Source: Sphingobacteriia bacterium
GTDB taxonomy: Bacteria > Bacteroidota > Bacteroidia > Bacteroidales > TTA-H9
Reading direction: 5' to 3'
NCBI GenBank assembly: GCA_021286705.1
Contig: JAJTBW010000019.1
Span: 1-35,501 of the forward strand
DNA length: 35,501 nucleotides
Part shown: one piece after another, positions 1 through 35,501 of the stretch
How positions within the stretch are numbered: position 1 is the stretch's first letter
Layout: every line of letters begins with the position of its first letter
Notes under the pieces: generated by a model
Told to the model about the DNA's origin: nothing
Seen by the model: the letters and a program-made list of their open reading frames with translations, nothing else
Databases searched by the model: none
Made by a program: the position numbers and the translations under genes

Positions 1-29
1 ATAAAAATGTATAAATTTTAATTTTTGAG

Positions 30-55
30 TGTAAACAACTTTTAGGACGATACAA
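30..55 (+). repeat. 26-bp conserved head motif, left copy
   Basis: This 26-base sequence begins TGTAAACAACTT and ends CGATACAA. Its exact reverse complement forms the last 26 bases of the window (35476-35501). No other copy was seen by eye. It is followed at once by a purine-rich tail (56-147). The identity of the two copies, set against diverged tails and unrelated flanks, marks it as the defined part of a repeat family. I do not recognise it as a known insertion-sequence end, and no transposase is encoded nearby. Confidence 0.85.
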
Positions 56-147
56 TAGGAACTATATAGGTAGAGGATAGGGAGAGGATTGAGAGAGAGA
101 GTTGAGAGAGAGTTGAAAGAGAAATGAGAGAAGCGGGGGAAGCAAGT
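56..147 (+). repeat. Purine-rich degenerate tandem tail, left copy
   Basis: About 90 bases that are nearly all A and G on the + strand, directly after the 26-bp head. The tract splits into irregular units of roughly 9-13 bases such as TAGAGGATAGG, GAGAGGATTG and three variants of GAGAGAGTTG. It resembles the right-end tail in composition and in strand relative to the head, but not in exact sequence. It is not a CRISPR array, because the units are too short and have no spacers. The inner boundary near 147 is gradual. Confidence 0.7.
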
Positions 148-2192: not shown

Positions 2193-5100
2193 ATGAAAAC
2201 TATTAAAAGTCATTTTTACCTGCTTCTTTCCCTCATACTCCTCAAGGGAAGTCTTCTATTTGGTCAGGACACCTGGCTATCTAAAACCTCACTAACAGGA
2301 GAATCACGACAAGGTGCAATAGCCTTTTCAATAAACGGAAAAGGGTACCTGGGACTAGGGTACAATGGATCGTATAAAAAAGATCTTTGGGAGTATGATC
2401 CCACGACTGAAACATGGACTCAAAAAGCTGACATTCCAGGTTCTGGAAGAAGTGAGGCAGTTATAATACCATTAGGCAACGATGCTCTTGTTGCTACCGG
2501 CTATAACGGTAACTTCCTAAAGGATGTATGGAGTTGGTCATCAACCACCAATACATGGTCACAGAAGAATGATTTTAACGGGTCTCAGAGACAAGGTGCT
2601 GTAGGTTTTACCCTTGCCGGAAACGGTTATATGGGTTTAGGATACAACGGGACCTTTCTTAACGACTTCTATCAGTACAACTCTGTAACCGACACCTGGG
2701 TAGCAAAATCAAATTATCCAGCCGGAGGAAGAGCTTTCTGCGCTGTTTTCACCACATTAACTCATGGTTATGTTGGATTAGGATATAATGCTGGATATCA
2801 AAGCCAGCTTTATGCGTATGATCCGGCAACAGATAGTTGGTCGCAAAAAAGCAACTTCCCCGGATCAGCCAGAGCATTTACTGTTAGCTATACCCTCAAT
2901 TATCAGGGCTGGGTTGGAACTGGCGACAATGGCGTATCTACCCTCAAAGACTTCTGGCTCTATAACCCCTCTTTTGATGCCTGGGTTCAAAAAGCTTCAC
3001 TCCCTGGAAATGCACGTAGACAAGCAGCAGCTTTTGTGATTGGAAATAATGCCTACGTGGTTTCTGGAAGTGCTGCTGGCCCAATCTATTTCAATGACTT
3101 ATGGCAATGGAATGGCGACTATTGCAATCTTAATATTCTTCCGGTTGTTCAGCACATTTCTTGCCCGACCTCAAACAACGGGTCTATCTCAATTACAGCA
3201 TCTTCTTCATACCCTCCTTATACATTCAATTGGAGCACAGGTAGTACCTCATCATCAATTTCTAATCTTTCTACAGGCACCTACACCGTTAACATCAAAG
3301 ATGCCGCAAACTGTACCTATCAGGGTTCCTGGCGTATTGACACCCCTACCCCTATCTCTTTCGGCGTTGACACCAACACGTGGGGTAATACACGTAAAAT
3401 CGGTGGTCAGGGTGCTGATGCTATCATTGCCTCTGTCTATGATGCATCGGGCAATCACTATGTCACTGGAACATTTTCCGGCTCCGCAACATTTGGTAGC
3501 AATACGCTCATCAGTAATGGAGGCACCGATGTCTTCCTTGCTGCTTACAACTCTAGCGGAGTAATTCAGTGGGTTAGACAAATTGGAGGTACAAATAACG
3601 ATGCTCCAACAGCTATCGCTATCAATAATGCAGGCGAGATTACTATCTCTGGCTATTTCACCGATTATGCTGTCTTTGGAACACTCCCAAAAAACAGCCA
3701 AGGTGGTGAGGATATCTTTATTGCAAGGTACTCTTCTCTTGGATCCCAAATGTGGGCAAGAACTGCCGGGGGTGCGCTAAATGACAGAGCAACCGGAATG
3801 TTCATTGACAATAATGACAACATCTATCTGACCGGAGCCTTTGAGGGAGCAGCTCAATTTGGAAACCAAACGCTGGTTGCCAACGGAGGAAAAGACATCT
3901 TTGTTGTCAAATGGAATAGTGCAGGTATTCCTGAATGGATAGCACAAGCTGGAACTTCGTCTACTGAAACCGGAACAGCCATAGTAGCCGATAACTCAGG
4001 TAACGTTTATGTCACAGGAACCATGCAGTCAAGCCTGACAATAGGCTCAACTACGCTCACAGGTGCTGGAGCAAACGATATTTTCCTAGCTGCCTATGAC
4101 AGATATGGTTCACCTATCTGGGCTAAAAATGCAGGTGGCGCGTTCGACGATTATCCTTCATCAATGATAATCAACAATAATCAATTGGTTATAACCGGAT
4201 GGTTTGGAAATACAGCCACCTTTGGAAGCCAAACTTTAACAAGTAATGGTGGATTAGATGTTTTTGCCTCAGCTTGGTCTCTAAACGGGACTCATGCCTG
4301 GGCAGTAAGAGCTGGAGGACTAGGAGATGATAAAGCTTATGCCATTAACTCTTTTACAAACCATGAGATGGTTTTTGTTGGATCGTTCTCTGGTTCAGCA
4401 ACCTTTGGTACAGAGACTCTAACCTCAAAAGGGGGTCTTGATCTTTTTGCATGTAGAATAGATAAATCAGGAAGTATTCTTAAAACCATTGCTCATGGTG
4501 GTGGTGGAAATGAAATCGCTTACACCGTTTCAACCAGCTCACCCTCTACTCTTCTTATCGGCGGTAGTTTCACACAATCGCTAAGTTTTGGATCAACTTT
4601 TTTAGTTTCATCGGGACAAACAGATGGTTTTTACTCTAAAACCAATATAGCCTCAAAATACATAGCACCCATTGTTAACAAAGTTACCTGCCCAGCAGGC
4701 AATGATGGATCTATCTTTACTAAAGTCACGGGAGGAACAAAACCCTATACATACTTATGGAACACCGGAGCAACTACTGATAGCCTTATTAATCTCTCTA
4801 CCGGTAATTACTCTTTACATATTACAGATGCCAATGGTTGCACAAAAGACACCACCTTTGTAATCAGCACCAAATATAACCTGCCGGTTGCTCCACTCGT
4901 AGCTTCAACTAACCGTGACTACTTCTGCGAAACAGATGCCGGTAACATTACGATTTCTGTAGCAGGTGGCTCTGGTGATACCCTTAAATGGTATTATGAC
5001 AATGCATGTACTCAATTAATGGGAAAAGGATCTCCTCTGACCATTCTCTCCCCTGACACAACCACCATCTACTACGCTCGCTGGGAAAATCCATGTGGTG

Positions 5101-8100
5101 TTTCATCGGCAATCGCATTGACTGTCCATGTTCTGATGTTACCTACACCAGCTATATCAATTAGTAATAGTAATCCTGATGCTTGTGCGGGTATAGGCAA
5201 TGTTACACTTACTGTGACAGGTGGCTCAGGCGATATTTTCAGATGGTATACCAATAGTTGTGGTGGCACCTATTTCTCAGAAGGAAACTCACTCTCAATA
5301 GGAACTCCTTTAACGACAACTGTACTATACGGCAGATGGGAAAGTAGCTGTGGAGTGTCTGAATGTAAACAGGTAATAGTGCATGTAAATGCTCTAGCTG
5401 AAAAACCAACCAGTATAACAGCAACTCAAACAGAAGTTTGCTTCGGATCAACTACCCCAATTACACTTACAGCACTTGGTGGGTCAGGGACTACACTCAA
5501 ATGGACAGCTGGCTCTTGCGGATCAACACCTATTTGGATTGGAAACCAAGCAATCATTACACCCCCTGCAACTACCACTAAATACTTTGCTTATTACGAA
5601 AACATATGTAATACAAGCCCCTGTGATTCAATCACAATCACAGTTAAGCCACTACCTGTAACACCTACAAGTGTAACAGCCAGTTCAACCTCGTTCTGTA
5701 AAGGAACACTAACTAACATCACATTGACGGCTGTAGGTGGCTCAGGCCAATCAGTAGTATGGTATACCGGCTTCTGTGGTAGTAATCAGATTATAGGACA
5801 AGGTAATCCTCTGACGATTGCTGCCCCAACAACCACTACCACTTATTTTGCGCAATGGACAAATAGCTGCGCTAATAGTAATTGTGCCAACGTTCAGGTT
5901 GTCGTTAAATCTAATCCAGTAGCCTCTTTCACCGGATTGGACGCCTACTATTGTGAAGGCGGTGCGGCGGACACACTACACGGTAACTTCACAACCAATA
6001 GCAGCTTTACAGGAACAGGAGGCGTAAGCACCACCGGAGGAGTTACAACATTTAATCCAGCCGGACTAACCAATGGTACCACCTATTCGGTTACTTACAC
6101 CTATACAGCACCAAATGGTTGCTCTGATGATACCACAATGACAACCTTTATCAGAGAAAAGCCATTTGTAGCTCTTCTAAGTCTAAATCCAACTTATTGC
6201 CTCAATAGTGACGATGATGATATAAATGGAAACATGGCTCCAATGGGGCTCATCACCGGCACAGGCGTCATTATGCCTGCTAACGGAGCAGCCAAATTCA
6301 GTCCAGCTACGGCTGGCGTAGGAACCTATCCTATTACCTATACCTATTCAGACTTTTATGGTTGTACCAACTCCGTATCTCAAAACACTACTGTTTACGA
6401 TTTACCTGTAGTATCATTTACTGGACTATCCAGCACCGTGTGTATTGACGCAGGCCCACAAGCCCTAATTGGCAACAATACTACCAATAGCTATTTTGCA
6501 GGACCAGGCATCAACAATGGAACTCCCGGACAAGCCACTTTTGATCCGCAGACAGCTGGCATAGGTGGCCCATACACGATTACTTACCAATACACCAATG
6601 GAAATAATTGTACAAATATTGCTGAACTCGAAGTCACAGTTGCACCAAAACCAGAGGTAGATTTCACAGGTTTAGAAGCATCATACTGTTTCAATTCTCC
6701 TGTTGATTACCTATATGGAAATCACGCGACAAACAGCACTTTCTTCGGTCCTGGTATTACATCTAATCCAAATGGAACAGCATCATTCAACCCGTCTGTT
6801 GCTGGACCCGGCACTCACACTATTGGATACACCTATACTAGTTCCGAAGGATGTGATGATTCAATAACCAAACAAGTTATTGTTTTCCCACCTACAAATC
6901 TCAGTATTTTAAATCTCGATGCCGACTACTGTGTCGATGCTAATCCAGCTGTTATTATAGGAAATAAGGCACCGTTTGGTACTTTCAGTGGGCCTGGCAT
7001 CCAACCTGGCGCAGCAGGTAATGCAACATTTACCCCTTCACAAGCTGGAGTGGGCGGTCCCTGGCCAATTGTCTATACATTCATATCTAATAATGGTTGC
7101 GTTAATAGAGATACGGCCTATACAACTGTTCATGCATTACCTCAAGTAACCATAGCAGGACTGCCAGCTCGTATTTGCGTCAACTCACCTGCTGTTACAG
7201 TAACCGGAACACCAACACCAGGAGGTACATTCTCAGGTCCTGGCATTACAAACACCACCCCCGGCTCAGCCACGTTTGACCCAGCTATTGCAGGAAGTGG
7301 TACTCATACCATTAAGTACAACTACACAGATAGTTTCAATTGCGAGAATGAAGCAACTGCAACTATCATCGTTAATGCCTTACCAATCCCGATTATTGAA
7401 GGGCTTGAAACCTCTTATTGCATTGACGCTCCTAACGACACACTCGTAGGAAACTACATGCCATTTGGTAACATTACCGGAACAGGAGTTGAGCCATTAT
7501 ACATTGGAATGGGAGTATTTAAGCCCTCTGTAGCAGGTGTTGGTGGCCCTTATGACATTACTTACAATGTCACAGATATGAATGGTTGCCAGGCTGATAC
7601 TGTGTTCAAGACAACTGTTTATGCATTACCCACAGTTACTATTACAGGGTTAGATGCCAACTATTGCATAGATGATACCCCTGTAACATTGACAGGATCA
7701 CCTGCCACAGGCGTCTTCACCGGTGCTGGAATTCAAGATAACGGCAATGGAACTGCAACATTTACGCCTCAGACAGCAGGTGCAGGAAACTTCACAATCA
7801 CCTATATTGCCTCAGATCCTAACTCCTGCTCAAACAGAACAACAGTACAAACCTCTGTAAAACCTCTTCCTGAGCCAGTCACTTCAGTGGCAGTGAGTAG
7901 AAACTTCTACTGTCCGGGGACAGTCACACAGTTAACATTCTCAGCTACTGGTGGAAGTGGAGATACCCTATTCTGGTATGCAAAAGCAGCTGGAGATTCG
8001 CTTGTTGGAAAGGGTGATCATATAGTAGTAACAGCTCCTAATGATAGCCTTTGGTATTATGCAAGATGGGAAAGTAATTGCGGTGTAGCCGATGCTGACT

Positions 8101-11100
8101 CAATACTTATTGTTGTTTTACCATTGCCCATAGTACCTGATTCAGCGTATGCTGATACAGCAAGTTTCTGTTACGGTACGATTACCTCAATCTCACTTCA
8201 TGCCGCTGGTGGCCGAGGTGACGTATTAAGGTGGTACAAGAATAGCTGTAATGGGCCAATCGTAGGACTAACTCCTGATATTACACTTGCGGCACCCACT
8301 GACTCAACATGGTACTATGCAAGATGGTTTAATGCTTGCGGTGTTTCAGATTGCGATTCAGTTTTAATTGCAGTACAACCACAGCCACTGCCTCCTGACA
8401 GCGTTGCAGTTGACACCAATTATTATTGTGCAACAACCATATCAAATATCACATTAGAAGCCTTTGGTGGAATTGGAGATACCATCCAATGGTTTACAGA
8501 TGGATGTGGACTCACTCCTCTGATGACTGGAAACCCCATAACCATTACAGCTCCTGATTCCACTACAACCTATTACCTCAGGTATAAAAACAAGTGTAAC
8601 GTCTCGTTATGCACATCATTTGAGGTTGTTGTAATTCCTCAACCTGTTAAACCTGATACATTGTTCTCAGATCAGAACGACTTCTGTACGGGACAAGTAG
8701 GGGCAATTCTTCTAACGGCTCAAGGTGGAGTTGGAAGCTCAGTCAGATGGTTTAAAGATTCATGTACCGGAGAAGATCTTGGCGTTGGAAATCCGTTACT
8801 GATTAATGCACCAACTGATTCTACATTCTACTTTGCTCGATGGGAAAATGCTTGCGGAGAAAGTGAATGTACACGAATGAGGGTGGATGTTTATCCTAAC
8901 CCGGGCACAATTGACACACTTGAGGCAAATCCCCCAGTAGCCTGCTCTTTGACTGGAACAGTTACCTTAACAGCTGTGGGTAATTTTACGCCTCTTGATA
9001 CCATCATCTGGTTCCAGGATTCATGCAATGGCACTGTTCTAGGCAAAACAAATCCTTTAACAATTAGCACTCCTGACTCAACAACCACCTATTATGCTGC
9101 TGTAGCCAACAGGTGTGATACAACCGCATGTTCTTCTGTAACCCTTCTAATAGACACGCCACTACCTCCGGTAAGTTTTGTGGCAGATACAAATGAATTC
9201 TGTAAAGGATTTACAGGTAATATTACTCTTTCAGCCAACGGTGGAAATGGAACATCAATAGAATGGTTCGCTCAAAGTTGTGGATCATCTATAATAGGAA
9301 CCACCCCGGTAATTACAATTGCAGCCCCTGACACATCAACATGGTATTTCGCTCGATACACCAATACTTGTGGCACTTCGGCATGCGATTCTACGCTTAT
9401 TACCGTAATCCCTAATCCGATAGCACCTGACACTATAGTTGTAGATTCCAATAATTATTGTGTGGGCACCGTTCAAACAGTAACTCTATCAATTGTAGGA
9501 GGCTATGGAGATACCCTCTCCTCATATGGAGAAACAGTAAGGTGGTATATCAACGGCTGCGATGGAATTGAAATCGGGACTGGCAAAACCCTTGAGATAC
9601 CTGCTCCAAATGTACCAACCCAATACTTTGCACGTTGGGAAAATCATTGTGGAGTTACCGAGTGTGCATCAGGAGAAATCTTTGTAAACACGCCTTTACC
9701 TCCGACAACAGCAGAAGTTGACACTACAGGGTATTGCCCGGGTAATGTTAAATACATCACGCTTTCCGCATCTGGAGGAAATGGAACTCTAATCCGCTGG
9801 TTCGAGGTAAGACCAACAGATACAATCCCTATTGGCAAGGAAAGTCCATTTACATTGTTTGCTCCTCAGGTAACCACAACATATCTAGTACGTAACGAAA
9901 ACATCTGTGGAGTCTCAGATTATGTTCCTGTAATCGTTAAGGTTAGTGAAGCCATCATGCCTGATTCAATTGGTACAGAAAGAAAATCATACTGTAACAT
10001 TGAAAACGGGAATATCATGCTCTGGGTAATTGGAGGAAATGGTGATACCGTTAAATGGTATGTCGATGGTTGCCGCGCAACACTGGTTGGAATAGGCGAC
10101 ACCTTGATTGCACCAATACCTCCTACAACAACAACCTATTATGCAAACTGGAATAGCTCTTGTGGTATAACAGCTTGCGTTGAGAGAGAAATTGTTATTA
10201 AAACGATGCCAACAGTTATAGTAGGACCTAATGACTCTATATGTGCCGACGAAACCTATACCTTTAAAAATGTTGTCTCTAATGATTGCATTTCTAGAGA
10301 ATGGACAACTTCGGGGGATGGAGTATTTGATGATCCGACGGATAAAAATCCGACTTACACACCTGGTGTAAATGACATCAAAAATGGGTTACCCATTTAT
10401 CTAAAATTAACATCTACTGGTGCTGCACCTTGTGGTTACGCTGTTGATAGCATGCAATTAACCTTGATGCCGTTACCAAATATCATAGTGACACAATCAG
10501 ACACATCTGTTTGTAGAGACTCACTGTTCACTTTGGTTGCATCAGGTGCCTCTGTTTACACATGGAATAATACCCCGACACTAGACACTCTCAATGGTCC
10601 AATTGTTAAAGGATATCCTACACTTACAGAGACTTTCGTAGTACGTGGCCGTTCTAACTTCGGATGTAGAGATACAGCTGCTGTCACCGTTAAAGTAGTA
10701 CCTCGTCCATTCGTAAATCTTGGAGAAGATCTATTTATCTTTACTTGCGAACCGATTACACTTGATGCTGGTATATCAACTGGCAATCAATTCTACATGT
10801 GGGATAACTACACACAATCCAGGAAACGTGAGGTAACCGAATCAGGAATCTATTACGTCACTGTTAGCAATGAAGGTTGCGCAGTCAGTGATACTATCGT
10901 AGTTAATATGTGTAACTCAGGTGTTCTCACAGCCCCTGATGCATTCACGCCTAATGGTGACGGCATCAACGATGTCTACAGGTTCATTTCTTCCGACCCA
11001 ACAATGAAATTCAATCTAACTATCTTCGATAGACATGGAATGGTAATCTATCAATCCGATGATATTAATGCTGGATGGGATGGTTATTCAAATGGCAAAG

Positions 11101-11207
11101 CTTGCCCATCTGGGGTCTATATCTACATGGTCAAGTTTGTTGGATCAGGGACAAGCGATCCGGGAACAGAAAAGATATTAACCGGAAAGATCGTACTCGT
11201 TAAATAG
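2193..11207 (+). CDS. Giant T9SS-exported Kelch/SprB/SBBP/Ig-like/PKD-like surface protein
   Basis: A 3004-residue protein with a signal peptide (1-25, ending LLFGQ). Approximate domain order: six Kelch repeats (24-312); a SprB-type repeat (311-389); an SBBP-like beta-propeller with repeated GGxxxDxF and GSATFG units (396-816); a second SprB-type repeat (826-891); four Ig-like modules of about 87 residues (896-1243) with GGSGDTLKWY and YYARWENxCG signatures; eight PKD-like modules (1243-1896) with FTGLxAxYC and GTATFNP signatures; nine more Ig-like modules (1896-2672); two or three divergent modules; and a type B T9SS C-terminal domain (2910-3004) with FTPNGDGINDVY, FDRHG and CPSGVYIYMV. The protein should be secreted across the outer membrane and anchored or released at the surface. 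An adhesin or matrix role is likely; no catalytic domain was seen. A strong terminator follows. Confidence 0.9.
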   Translation: MKTIKSHFYLLLSLILLKGSLLFGQDTWLSKTSLTGESRQGAIAFSINGKGYLGLGYNGSYKKDLWEYDPTTETWTQKADIPGSGRSEAVIIPLGNDALVATGYNGNFLKDVWSWSSTTNTWSQKNDFNGSQRQGAVGFTLAGNGYMGLGYNGTFLNDFYQYNSVTDTWVAKSNYPAGGRAFCAVFTTLTHGYVGLGYNAGYQSQLYAYDPATDSWSQKSNFPGSARAFTVSYTLNYQGWVGTGDNGVSTLKDFWLYNPSFDAWVQKASLPGNARRQAAAFVIGNNAYVVSGSAAGPIYFNDLWQWNGDYCNLNILPVVQHISCPTSNNGSISITASSSYPPYTFNWSTGSTSSSISNLSTGTYTVNIKDAANCTYQGSWRIDTPTPISFGVDTNTWGNTRKIGGQGADAIIASVYDASGNHYVTGTFSGSATFGSNTLISNGGTDVFLAAYNSSGVIQWVRQIGGTNNDAPTAIAINNAGEITISGYFTDYAVFGTLPKNSQGGEDIFIARYSSLGSQMWARTAGGALNDRATGMFIDNNDNIYLTGAFEGAAQFGNQTLVANGGKDIFVVKWNSAGIPEWIAQAGTSSTETGTAIVADNSGNVYVTGTMQSSLTIGSTTLTGAGANDIFLAAYDRYGSPIWAKNAGGAFDDYPSSMIINNNQLVITGWFGNTATFGSQTLTSNGGLDVFASAWSLNGTHAWAVRAGGLGDDKAYAINSFTNHEMVFVGSFSGSATFGTETLTSKGGLDLFACRIDKSGSILKTIAHGGGGNEIAYTVSTSSPSTLLIGGSFTQSLSFGSTFLVSSGQTDGFYSKTNIASKYIAPIVNKVTCPAGNDGSIFTKVTGGTKPYTYLWNTGATTDSLINLSTGNYSLHITDANGCTKDTTFVISTKYNLPVAPLVASTNRDYFCETDAGNITISVAGGSGDTLKWYYDNACTQLMGKGSPLTILSPDTTTIYYARWENPCGVSSAIALTVHVLMLPTPAISISNSNPDACAGIGNVTLTVTGGSGDIFRWYTNSCGGTYFSEGNSLSIGTPLTTTVLYGRWESSCGVSECKQVIVHVNALAEKPTSITATQTEVCFGSTTPITLTALGGSGTTLKWTAGSCGSTPIWIGNQAIITPPATTTKYFAYYENICNTSPCDSITITVKPLPVTPTSVTASSTSFCKGTLTNITLTAVGGSGQSVVWYTGFCGSNQIIGQGNPLTIAAPTTTTTYFAQWTNSCANSNCANVQVVVKSNPVASFTGLDAYYCEGGAADTLHGNFTTNSSFTGTGGVSTTGGVTTFNPAGLTNGTTYSVTYTYTAPNGCSDDTTMTTFIREKPFVALLSLNPTYCLNSDDDDINGNMAPMGLITGTGVIMPANGAAKFSPATAGVGTYPITYTYSDFYGCTNSVSQNTTVYDLPVVSFTGLSSTVCIDAGPQALIGNNTTNSYFAGPGINNGTPGQATFDPQTAGIGGPYTITYQYTNGNNCTNIAELEVTVAPKPEVDFTGLEASYCFNSPVDYLYGNHATNSTFFGPGITSNPNGTASFNPSVAGPGTHTIGYTYTSSEGCDDSITKQVIVFPPTNLSILNLDADYCVDANPAVIIGNKAPFGTFSGPGIQPGAAGNATFTPSQAGVGGPWPIVYTFISNNGCVNRDTAYTTVHALPQVTIAGLPARICVNSPAVTVTGTPTPGGTFSGPGITNTTPGSATFDPAIAGSGTHTIKYNYTDSFNCENEATATIIVNALPIPIIEGLETSYCIDAPNDTLVGNYMPFGNITGTGVEPLYIGMGVFKPSVAGVGGPYDITYNVTDMNGCQADTVFKTTVYALPTVTITGLDANYCIDDTPVTLTGSPATGVFTGAGIQDNGNGTATFTPQTAGAGNFTITYIASDPNSCSNRTTVQTSVKPLPEPVTSVAVSRNFYCPGTVTQLTFSATGGSGDTLFWYAKAAGDSLVGKGDHIVVTAPNDSLWYYARWESNCGVADADSILIVVLPLPIVPDSAYADTASFCYGTITSISLHAAGGRGDVLRWYKNSCNGPIVGLTPDITLAAPTDSTWYYARWFNACGVSDCDSVLIAVQPQPLPPDSVAVDTNYYCATTISNITLEAFGGIGDTIQWFTDGCGLTPLMTGNPITITAPDSTTTYYLRYKNKCNVSLCTSFEVVVIPQPVKPDTLFSDQNDFCTGQVGAILLTAQGGVGSSVRWFKDSCTGEDLGVGNPLLINAPTDSTFYFARWENACGESECTRMRVDVYPNPGTIDTLEANPPVACSLTGTVTLTAVGNFTPLDTIIWFQDSCNGTVLGKTNPLTISTPDSTTTYYAAVANRCDTTACSSVTLLIDTPLPPVSFVADTNEFCKGFTGNITLSANGGNGTSIEWFAQSCGSSIIGTTPVITIAAPDTSTWYFARYTNTCGTSACDSTLITVIPNPIAPDTIVVDSNNYCVGTVQTVTLSIVGGYGDTLSSYGETVRWYINGCDGIEIGTGKTLEIPAPNVPTQYFARWENHCGVTECASGEIFVNTPLPPTTAEVDTTGYCPGNVKYITLSASGGNGTLIRWFEVRPTDTIPIGKESPFTLFAPQVTTTYLVRNENICGVSDYVPVIVKVSEAIMPDSIGTERKSYCNIENGNIMLWVIGGNGDTVKWYVDGCRATLVGIGDTLIAPIPPTTTTYYANWNSSCGITACVEREIVIKTMPTVIVGPNDSICADETYTFKNVVSNDCISREWTTSGDGVFDDPTDKNPTYTPGVNDIKNGLPIYLKLTSTGAAPCGYAVDSMQLTLMPLPNIIVTQSDTSVCRDSLFTLVASGASVYTWNNTPTLDTLNGPIVKGYPTLTETFVVRGRSNFGCRDTAAVTVKVVPRPFVNLGEDLFIFTCEPITLDAGISTGNQFYMWDNYTQSRKREVTESGIYYVTVSNEGCAVSDTIVVNMCNSGVLTAPDAFTPNGDGINDVYRFISSDPTMKFNLTIFDRHGMVIYQSDDINAGWDGYSNGKACPSGVYIYMVKFVGSGTSDPGTEKILTGKIVLVK

Positions 11208-31104: not shown

Positions 31105-31177
<73 letters not shown>

Positions 31178-31179
31178 CT

Positions 31180-31212: not shown

Positions 31213-31604
31213 ACATGTCGCTCTCATGATGATCCCATTTAAGAACGGATAAAATGATTGGGGATATCTAGTATGTTGAAATTTGATAGAGAGTGTTCCA
31301 TTTTAAAAGTGTTCCAAAACGGCTAAGTGATCCTTTCTTCACTAATAATAATATACACAAAAAAACGAGGAATAAGTCTCCGAAAAGCCTTATTGTATAT
31401 GGATTAAAGAGGCATAAATGAGAGAGGCATAAAATAGGTGCGAAAACTCGAGAATGGCTGTTTGGAGAGATAACAGGGTTCCAAATTATAGAAGTGAGGC
31501 TGTTAGAAAAGCCGATAATACTCTACAATAAACTTTAGAAAGAAAATCGTACAAAGGCACTATGTCTACTATCCATAGGGATCTGCACAAGCTAAACTCT
31601 TAAG
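31213..31604. other. Intergenic region between the tRNA-Gly terminator and the tRNA-Leu terminator
   Basis: About 390 bases with no convincing open frame or RNA. Small direct repeats are visible: AGTGTTCC twice (about 31289 and 31308) and GAGGCATAAA twice (about 31409 and 31425). The latter recalls the purine-rich tails at the window ends, but no 26-bp head is present, so I do not call it a third copy. Confidence 0.5.
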
Positions 31605-31806: not shown

Positions 31807-31808
31807 TG

Positions 31809-31881
<73 letters not shown>

Positions 31882-34387: not shown

Positions 34388-35318
34388 ATTAATCTACTTA
34401 TAAATCTACTATTTCAGCTCAAATTCTCAACTGACAAAGTGGAATTAGAAAAATCAGTACTCTCAAATAGAGTGTGTTTCAGATTACCTATTACAAAGGC
34501 AACCTCATTGATTATGCTAAAAACAATAATCAAAAACGGCTATGCAAACTTGACTGTTTAAAATCAATATAAGCCCAGAGGATGCAAACAAAAGGTAAAA
34601 AATCACACTGTTAATCTGCCACATAATCAGTTATTATAAAATGAGAAACAAAATAGAATGCTAATCCATTGAAGCTACTTTTTACTCTAAGAATAACCAC
34701 TAAAGGGCACCGCTGGTATTCAACTGACAATTACCATATTAGTTATAGATTTCAATAAATAGTTTATATTTATATCAAACTATTTTAAAAAAAACATACA
34801 ATAATTGCACAGAATATGTAATATGTTACTATATTTGATGTCTCTCGTGATTCTTCTTTAAAGCTGCGATAGATATTTTTTAATCTATTGATAAAGAAGA
34901 AAACGAAGAGGCGATGAAAACCTAAAGTACAGAAGCCTGAAATACGGGATGTATATAAGGCTTCATTATACTTGTTTTAAAATAGCTAATGAGTGGACCT
35001 TTATAAATGTTGAATTAAGTTGCTGTCGGTACACTCATAATACTATCCGGAGAAGCGGGAGCCGATCCGGATTTTTTTATCCCAGCGGAGCCTCTATTTT
35101 ACGTTTAATCCAACTTCGACTCAAGGACACCCTAAAAAAGAGCAATACATTTCATAAAATAATCTGGTAAAAGAAGAGATTTTTGGTACTAATCACATGA
35201 CAAAGACTTAAAGATACTGATCATTCTTTCTTTTTAACCGCCCATCCCTTCCAAATTTCTCTTGCCAGCCCCAAATATCCATGCTTCCAATTCTCTGATA
35301 TTCAGCATCCCCAAAGCT
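34388..35318. other. Gene-poor AT-rich region before the right-end repeat
   Basis: About 930 bases with no recognisable gene. An open frame of 73 codons (34949-35170) has no family resemblance or ribosome site and is not called. At 35045-35079 ATCCGG pairs with CCGGAT and is followed by a T run, a weak terminator-like hairpin. AGCGGGAGCC and AGCGGAGCC occur 30 bases apart nearby (35054 and 35084). Confidence 0.5.
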
Positions 35319-35475
35319 CCCCTCTTATATCCCTCTTATATCTCTCTTATGACTCTCTTATGTTCTCTTATGTTTTCTTATGTCTCTCTTATAACTTTTA
35401 CTCGTCCCGTTCATCTCTCGTTCCCTTGATCTACCTACCTTCTCCTGTTCCTCTCCTGTTCCCCTCCTGTTCTCC
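35319..35475 (-). repeat. Purine-rich degenerate tandem tail, right copy
   Basis: About 155 bases, pyrimidine-rich on the + strand and so purine-rich on the - strand, reading inward from the 26-bp head. Next to the head are three units of about 11 bases of the TCTCCTGTTCC type (35441-35475). Farther in are seven units of 10-11 bases of the CTCTCTTATGT type (35321-35394). A less regular stretch lies between. The units drift gradually, as in slippage- or recombination-prone arrays. Confidence 0.75.
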
Positions 35476-35501
35476 TTGTATCGTCCTAAAAGTTGTTTAC
35501 A
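35476..35501 (-). repeat. 26-bp conserved head motif, right copy (inverted)
   Basis: The exact reverse complement of 30-55, with no mismatches. It occupies the last 26 bases of the window, so its outer flank is not visible. Its purine-rich tail extends inward on the same strand, as in the left copy. Confidence 0.85.

Follow-up and report, generated by a model that had tools for sequence, protein, structure and literature searches.

A probable IS3-type transposon end lodged in a dispersed, REP-like hairpin repeat at both ends of a Bacteroidota contig

Features of the contig

The window, which is the whole stretch of DNA analysed here (35,501 nt), corresponds to the entire contig C131 of a draft Bacteroidota genome (G000; 322 contigs, 4.16 Mb). 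It contains a 3004-aa open reading frame in which repeats of ~250–260 nt are numerous, and two tRNA-Gly(gcc) genes of identical score that lie inverted on either side of a tRNA-Leu gene. No other inverted repeat in the window is as long as the one that this tRNA-Gly pair forms (120 nt, 89%). Positions of all features are collected in Table 1.

The 26-mer TGTAAACAACTTTTAGGACGATACAA, which we call the head, occurs at 30–55 on the forward strand and at 35476–35501 on the reverse strand. A preliminary description of this DNA had reported the two copies as exact and inverted, which was borne out: the 26-mer was never matched in 100 shuffled controls, even with 3 mismatches allowed. The same description held that each head runs into an almost pure A/G tail of degenerate short units. 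The tails are indeed purine-rich on the same side of the head, but only to 82%–84% on the left (56–147) and 82%–83% on the right, where they read as pyrimidine on the forward strand. The units are real, and Tandem Repeats Finder (TRF) specifies them as 11 bp on both sides.

Table 1. Positions of features in the window and the basis of each assignment
Feature	Position	Strand	Basis
Predicted interior of an IS3-type element end	1..29	-	Contig starts 55 bases before the junction; k=55 from 34/60 ends
Putative terminal inverted repeat (head), tip 54/55, tip-inward TGTATCGTCCTAAAAGTTGTTTACA	30..55	-	Found in six other genomes; related end bounds a complete IS
Loop core of hairpin repeat, right half (TAGGAACTATATAGGTAGAGG)	56..76	+	Identical to cores elsewhere; head replaces CTCGTGTAAGA
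Hairpin-repeat right arm, degenerate 11-bp purine-rich units	77..131	+	TRF period 11; 74%–86% identical to the right arm in many other copies
Open reading frame	2193..11207		
tRNA-Gly(gcc)	31105..31178		
Intergenic AAAGAGGCATAAATGAGAGAGGCATAAAATAGG	31405..31445		Resembles decayed 11-bp arm units (CATAAGAGAG)
tRNA-Gly(gcc)	31808..31881		
Outer mosaic block common to some repeat copies (GGGGAGCTTTGGGGATGCTGAATATCAGAGAATTGGAAGC...)	35200..35321	-	BLAST for the first ~20 nt; remainder compared by eye with L033, L052 and L086
Left arm of another hairpin copy, 11-bp units of GGAGAACAGGA and ACATAAGAGAG types	35322..35475	-	Matches L033 (96%, 126 nt) and L095 (97%, 79 nt); TRF period 11
Second putative terminal inverted repeat (head), tip 35476/35477, element beyond contig end	35476..35501	+	Exact copy; last 55 bases equal the C115 end

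Assembly context

At each end the window breaks off inside a multi-copy repeat, at a k=55 assembly breakpoint. Across G000, 34 of the 60 contig ends that fall inside the hairpin repeat described below have exactly 55 bases in common with another contig, as a k=55 assembly graph would produce. A third exact copy of the 26-mer terminates contig C115, and the right end of the window shares exactly 55 bases with it (the head plus GGAGAACAGGAGGGGAACAGGAGAGGAAC), with divergence beyond. On the left, the first base of the window lies exactly 55 bases before the junction of head and tail; positions 1–29 plus the head make up the common 55-base contig-end word, with the element lying toward and beyond position 1. 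The head thus marks the border of a multi-copy sequence that continues past the contig, and the body of its element lies outside. Since the window is a whole contig with such a breakpoint at either end, the presence of the head at both ends, pointed out in the preliminary description, is an effect of assembly. More generally, a feature that recurs at the two ends of a draft contig may be no more than an assembly breakpoint in a repeat.

The head resembles an IS3-family terminal inverted repeat

Read inward from its tip, the head (TGTATCGTCCTAAAAGTTGTTTACA) has the length range and tip of IS3-family terminal repeats (~20–40 bp, TG...CA). With up to 3 mismatches, six further genomes of the order contain this end; control matches were nearly nil, and the flanking sequences are unrelated, diverging at the tip. 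Related ends bound a complete orfA/orfB element of 1377 bp in G104 (L151:1371-2747), a genome of the order. Its orfB (298 aa) carries an integrase core (rve, E=4e-19), and its orfA (126 aa) has a weak HTH_Tnp_1 match under the Pfam cut-off. The window head is identical to the right end of this element at 20 of 25 positions (5 mismatches). In G061 we found 46 distinct heads in MITE-like copies; MITEs of 55–75 bp with a second inverted end opposite occur there and in G228. For half of the G061 heads the flanks are unique and unrelated, so the end is mobile independently of any array. From these sequence comparisons we read the head as a terminal inverted repeat of the IS3 family, belonging to either a full insertion sequence (IS) or a short derivative. 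The preliminary description knew of no insertion sequence, CRISPR, REP or integron-site family with this plan of head and tail, and named a match to a known insertion-sequence end among the findings that would count against its reading; the comparisons point to an end of that kind.

The IS body that belongs to the window heads was not found in the G000 draft assembly, and L024 and L025, considered as candidates for it, have ends that do not fit. L024:1-660 (on contig C217) is another IS3-type orfB fragment, whose probable end TGTCAATACCTGAATAGCGTTGACC adjoins tandem copies of GCCAGATGCCAG, one more repeat tract next to a tip. No target duplication (3–5 bp in the IS3 family) was obvious at L151, and the G000 insertions are assembled on one side only. 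The exact 20-mer of the head had no match in a collection of genome contigs, and a search of viral contigs and plasmids for the IS end returned nothing useful.

The tail belongs to a dispersed hairpin repeat

A BLAST search of window positions 1–147 against G000 gave 71 matches, mainly at contig ends, which form one repeat: [CCTCTCCCTAT]n AAA CTCGTGTAAGAT NN GAAC NNN ATAGGTAGAGG [ATATAGAGGGG][ATATTGAGGAG][ATGTTGAGGAG]n. The genome holds at least 54 (54–55) intergenic cores of this repeat, each with a conserved loop core of ~24 nt (CTCGTGTAAGATNNGAACNNNATAGG) between a pyrimidine and a purine arm built from 11-bp units. Many core positions are invariant across the 54 copies, and nearly all copies are without a head. 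In four head-free copies (L033, L095, L054, and L097) the left arm is 95%–97% identical to the right-end tail of the window and continues into the core. Two earlier claims fall here. Head and tail had been taken for one element, and the purine tail belongs instead to a 54-copy repeat that mostly lacks the head. The tails had also been said to vary freely, yet the first 29 bases of the right-end tail are identical to those of the C115 tail, and most of the remainder is 92%–97% identical to other arms.

Folding prediction for one strand gives a long hairpin in which every 11 nt contribute ~9 paired bases and an internal loop of 2x2, and shuffling one arm costs the predicted hairpin ~20 kcal/mol. 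Arms swapped between copies pair as well as a copy's own arms (-63.6 versus -63.6 kcal/mol), so there is no sign of covariation or compensatory change within copies, and we set aside arm co-evolution as a reading. Variants of the core and of the right arm were uncorrelated (Mantel r ~0), a weak result as the arms were compared ungapped. The nearest genes on the right side of the copies point away in 26 cases and toward the repeat in 25, and this lack of orientation bias led us to reject a terminator or promoter role. A MITE with the end GTGTCGAAGTCAGG enclosing the hairpin was likewise rejected, that end being present only at some right outer edges. No known Rfam RNA was identified as the repeat: its matches were generic hairpins below the gathering score, and the window gave tRNAs only.

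The repeat is intergenic, many-copy, and palindromic, in the manner of REP and BIME sequences, and its outer blocks form a mosaic common to subsets of copies. G000 encodes two Y1 transposases. One (L107, C44:9525-9869; 175 aa) is REP-associated and RAYT-like, with its own REP pairs (GGTGCGTAGCACCGGAAATATTTG) on both sides. The other (L106, C245; 150 aa) adjoins a DDE transposase with DUF4372, and its contig has no copy of the hairpin repeat. A RAYT-driven origin of the hairpin repeat was rejected, because the REP that flanks the C44 enzyme is a different one (GGTGCGTAGCACC). As the link to a RAYT is missing, we call the repeat REP-like and do not file it as REP.

The loop core appears restricted to this species. 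It was absent from the 59 related genomes and the viral contigs searched, and among 84,980 genomes there were 3 exact matches against ~2 expected by chance. Four family relatives (~180 kb sampled) gave a single purine/pyrimidine tract, of period 7. Our literature search returned nothing that matches 11-bp or polypurine intergenic hairpin arrays.

Other repeats lie around the copies. A recurrent right outer edge (...GTCAATAAAAGTGTCGAAGTCAGG, followed by unique DNA; L009, L013, L017, L023, L024, L076, and L082) resembles the terminus of a different mobile element. Several loci (L013, L026, L048, L086, L100, and others) carry, around or near the repeat, a dispersed intergenic sequence TGGTTGAGCGAAGTCGAAACCAC of TGAGCGAAGTCGAA type, a hairpin AAACCACGAAAGGCACGAAAAC...CGTGTTTTTCGTGGTT, and arrays of GCTGGCTACTGGC or AAATTCAAAATTCAAG. 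A cobalamin riboswitch (105 bits; L075:1021-1198, on contig C169) lies ~300 bp from one copy of the hairpin repeat.

Junctions between head and hairpin repeat

The head joins the repeat at different places. At the left end of the window it joins the loop core (GTAAG/ATAGG); at the right end and in C115 it joins a left arm (CTCCT/CTTATG). Both junctions read TAAG/A on the strand leading outward into the tail. A looser search of G000 recovered three further related ends (TGTCTTATCCTAAAATAGGTTTACA and variants) with ~85 bp of common interior, and in each case a hairpin copy adjoins the end with its right arm; the sole other match (C239) was at control level. All six recognisable ends in G000 therefore adjoin a repeat that, estimated as copy number times length, covers well under 1% of the genome. 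The preliminary view of the head as strict and recognisable holds, each G000 head having a short-unit array on its outer side. The genome-wide search for the 26-mer that it proposed did add a third, arrayed exact copy (C115). Since two of the three heads share one junction, the head of the right end and C115 may have been copied along with the repeat rather than inserted twice. The six ends are not independent and perhaps represent 3–4 events.

We consider it probable that IS3-type elements inserted into pre-existing copies of a REP-like hairpin repeat, so that the sequence at the window ends would consist of two modules. The first module (the head) would be the end of an IS3-family IS or short derivative with its body outside the contig, and the second (the tail) an arm of the dispersed intergenic repeat, with 11-bp units and a ~24-nt loop. 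Insertion would have occurred in the loop at the left end of the window, and in a left arm at the right end and C115, giving a form of which there are now two copies; at the three further copies a related end adjoins the right arm. The hairpin repeat itself would spread as a passive, REP-like repeat by means of some enzyme. By analogy with IS1397 and ISKpn1 on REP/PU hairpins, the transposase may prefer hairpins as targets, and we favor targeted insertion as the mechanism because REP-targeting IS3-family elements are already known. Mobility and function are what we infer. Both modules are of known kinds in a new combination, and the 11-bp regularity is unexplained.

Arrays beside the same end in other genomes

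The same end adjoins unrelated arrays of period 11, once 10, in three other genomes. Of the 46 heads in G061, 23 adjoin a different 11-bp array (CCTTTATAGTA / CCTTTCATGTA) at a fixed junction. Array length there varies in 11-bp steps, and the tip and the next conserved block are 23, 56, 57, 67, or 68 apart, a spacing that equals 1 or 2 modulo 11 in all 20 of the 20 cases. A short 11-bp array (GATAAGGCTTC, 2.5 units) stands directly outside the tip in G020, and in G104 one of 10 bp (AAAATTTGTG, 3.3 units) starts 4 bp beyond a tip; about 12 other ends in G020, G104, G114, G204, and G228 lack an array of this sort. In 200 kb of G000, 13 of 33 tandem arrays have period 11, more than any other period. 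It does not lead in the samples from other genomes of the order (4 of ~70 arrays; 1 of 19 in family relatives). Unit sequences are unrelated between genomes. It had been proposed that the tail is kept for its composition. The arrays beside the G061, G020, and G104 ends are not purine-rich, and the conserved property is the period (11, once 10).

The fixed junction in 23 copies makes G061 look like a case of a co-amplified composite rather than repeated targeting. Such a composite could also be proposed for the window, with the end of an IS3-type MITE and an 11-bp array amplified as one mobile unit and the array later mutating and changing its number of units. The shared junction and first 29 tail bases of C115 and the right end of the window would fit, as would the 11-bp length steps and the regular distances in G061. 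However, the 54 hairpin copies with intact cores in G000 are nearly all head-free, the G000 heads join the repeat in the loop, in a left arm, or at the end of a right arm, and half of the G061 heads have no array. We think this account unlikely. The head-plus-tail family that the preliminary description envisaged thus has a counterpart in G061, while in G000 head and tail are separate elements.

A less probable account still is that the element or its hairpin generates the arrays, with replication slippage or transposition laying down ~11-bp duplications beside hairpin-forming ends wherever the end sits. It would account for the arrays of period 11 (G000, G061, and G020) or 10 (G104) with unrelated units seen directly outside the tip, but the tens of head-free arrays in G000, with unit order unchanged, and the lack of an array at most G104 and G204 copies of the IS speak against it. 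That the 26-mer is an alternative hairpin centre, recognised by the factor that binds the usual core, is very improbable: every G000 head adjoins the repeat and the left head replaces the left half of the core, running straight into TAGGAACTATATAGG, but in G104 an end of this kind borders an IS that carries transposase genes, and in G061 it borders MITEs whose flanks are unrelated.

Insertion of IS3-type elements into the hairpin repeat is accordingly the reading we keep for G000. A broader proposal, which we regard as doubtful, is that across several families of the order an IS3-type end is regularly paired with ~11-bp arrays of free sequence (about one helical turn), either because the transposase or another protein reads the phasing of the DNA or because transposition lays down or amplifies 11-bp units. 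So far nothing explains why 11-bp phasing recurs next to this transposon end in unrelated genomes, a regularity that lends itself to direct testing.

Comparison with known systems

On the insertion reading, what looked like one head-plus-tail element is an actual example of an IS3-type element that has landed in an abundant hairpin repeat. The repeat itself is species-restricted and of unusual plan, with a conserved loop and variable, 11-bp-phased arms. The IS3-family elements IS1397, ISKpn1, and ISPsy8 insert into REP/PU sequences (PMC1525189). The case described here resembles them in its IS3-type end, in the orfA/orfB relative of that end, and in its probable insertion inside an abundant intergenic hairpin repeat. 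It differs in that the IS body is unassembled, no target duplication is visible, and the sequence of the hairpin repeat bears no relation to that of known REPs.

Similar to IS3-type MITEs, inverted-repeat derivatives of 55–75 bp with the same ends occur in G061 and G228, whereas G000 shows one end per place, which fits a MITE or a full IS alike. With REP, BIME, and REPIN sequences and their RAYTs, the hairpin repeat has in common tens of intergenic hairpins, a mosaic structure, and an orientation unbiased with respect to genes. Unlike them, it has a conserved loop and variable arms of 11-bp tandem units, and the RAYT of G000 is flanked by GGTGCGTAGCACC rather than by this repeat. An intrastrand triplex calls for a third, purine strand held by reverse-Hoogsteen pairs. 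Class II (Y-R-R) motifs of this type are ~37 nt long, with loops less conserved than stems (PMC4666352). They also place a pyrimidine tract, a loop, and a purine tract on one strand, in intergenic regions and without strand bias. In the hairpin repeat, by contrast, the loop is the most conserved part, and the likeness is one of Y-loop-R order and composition only.
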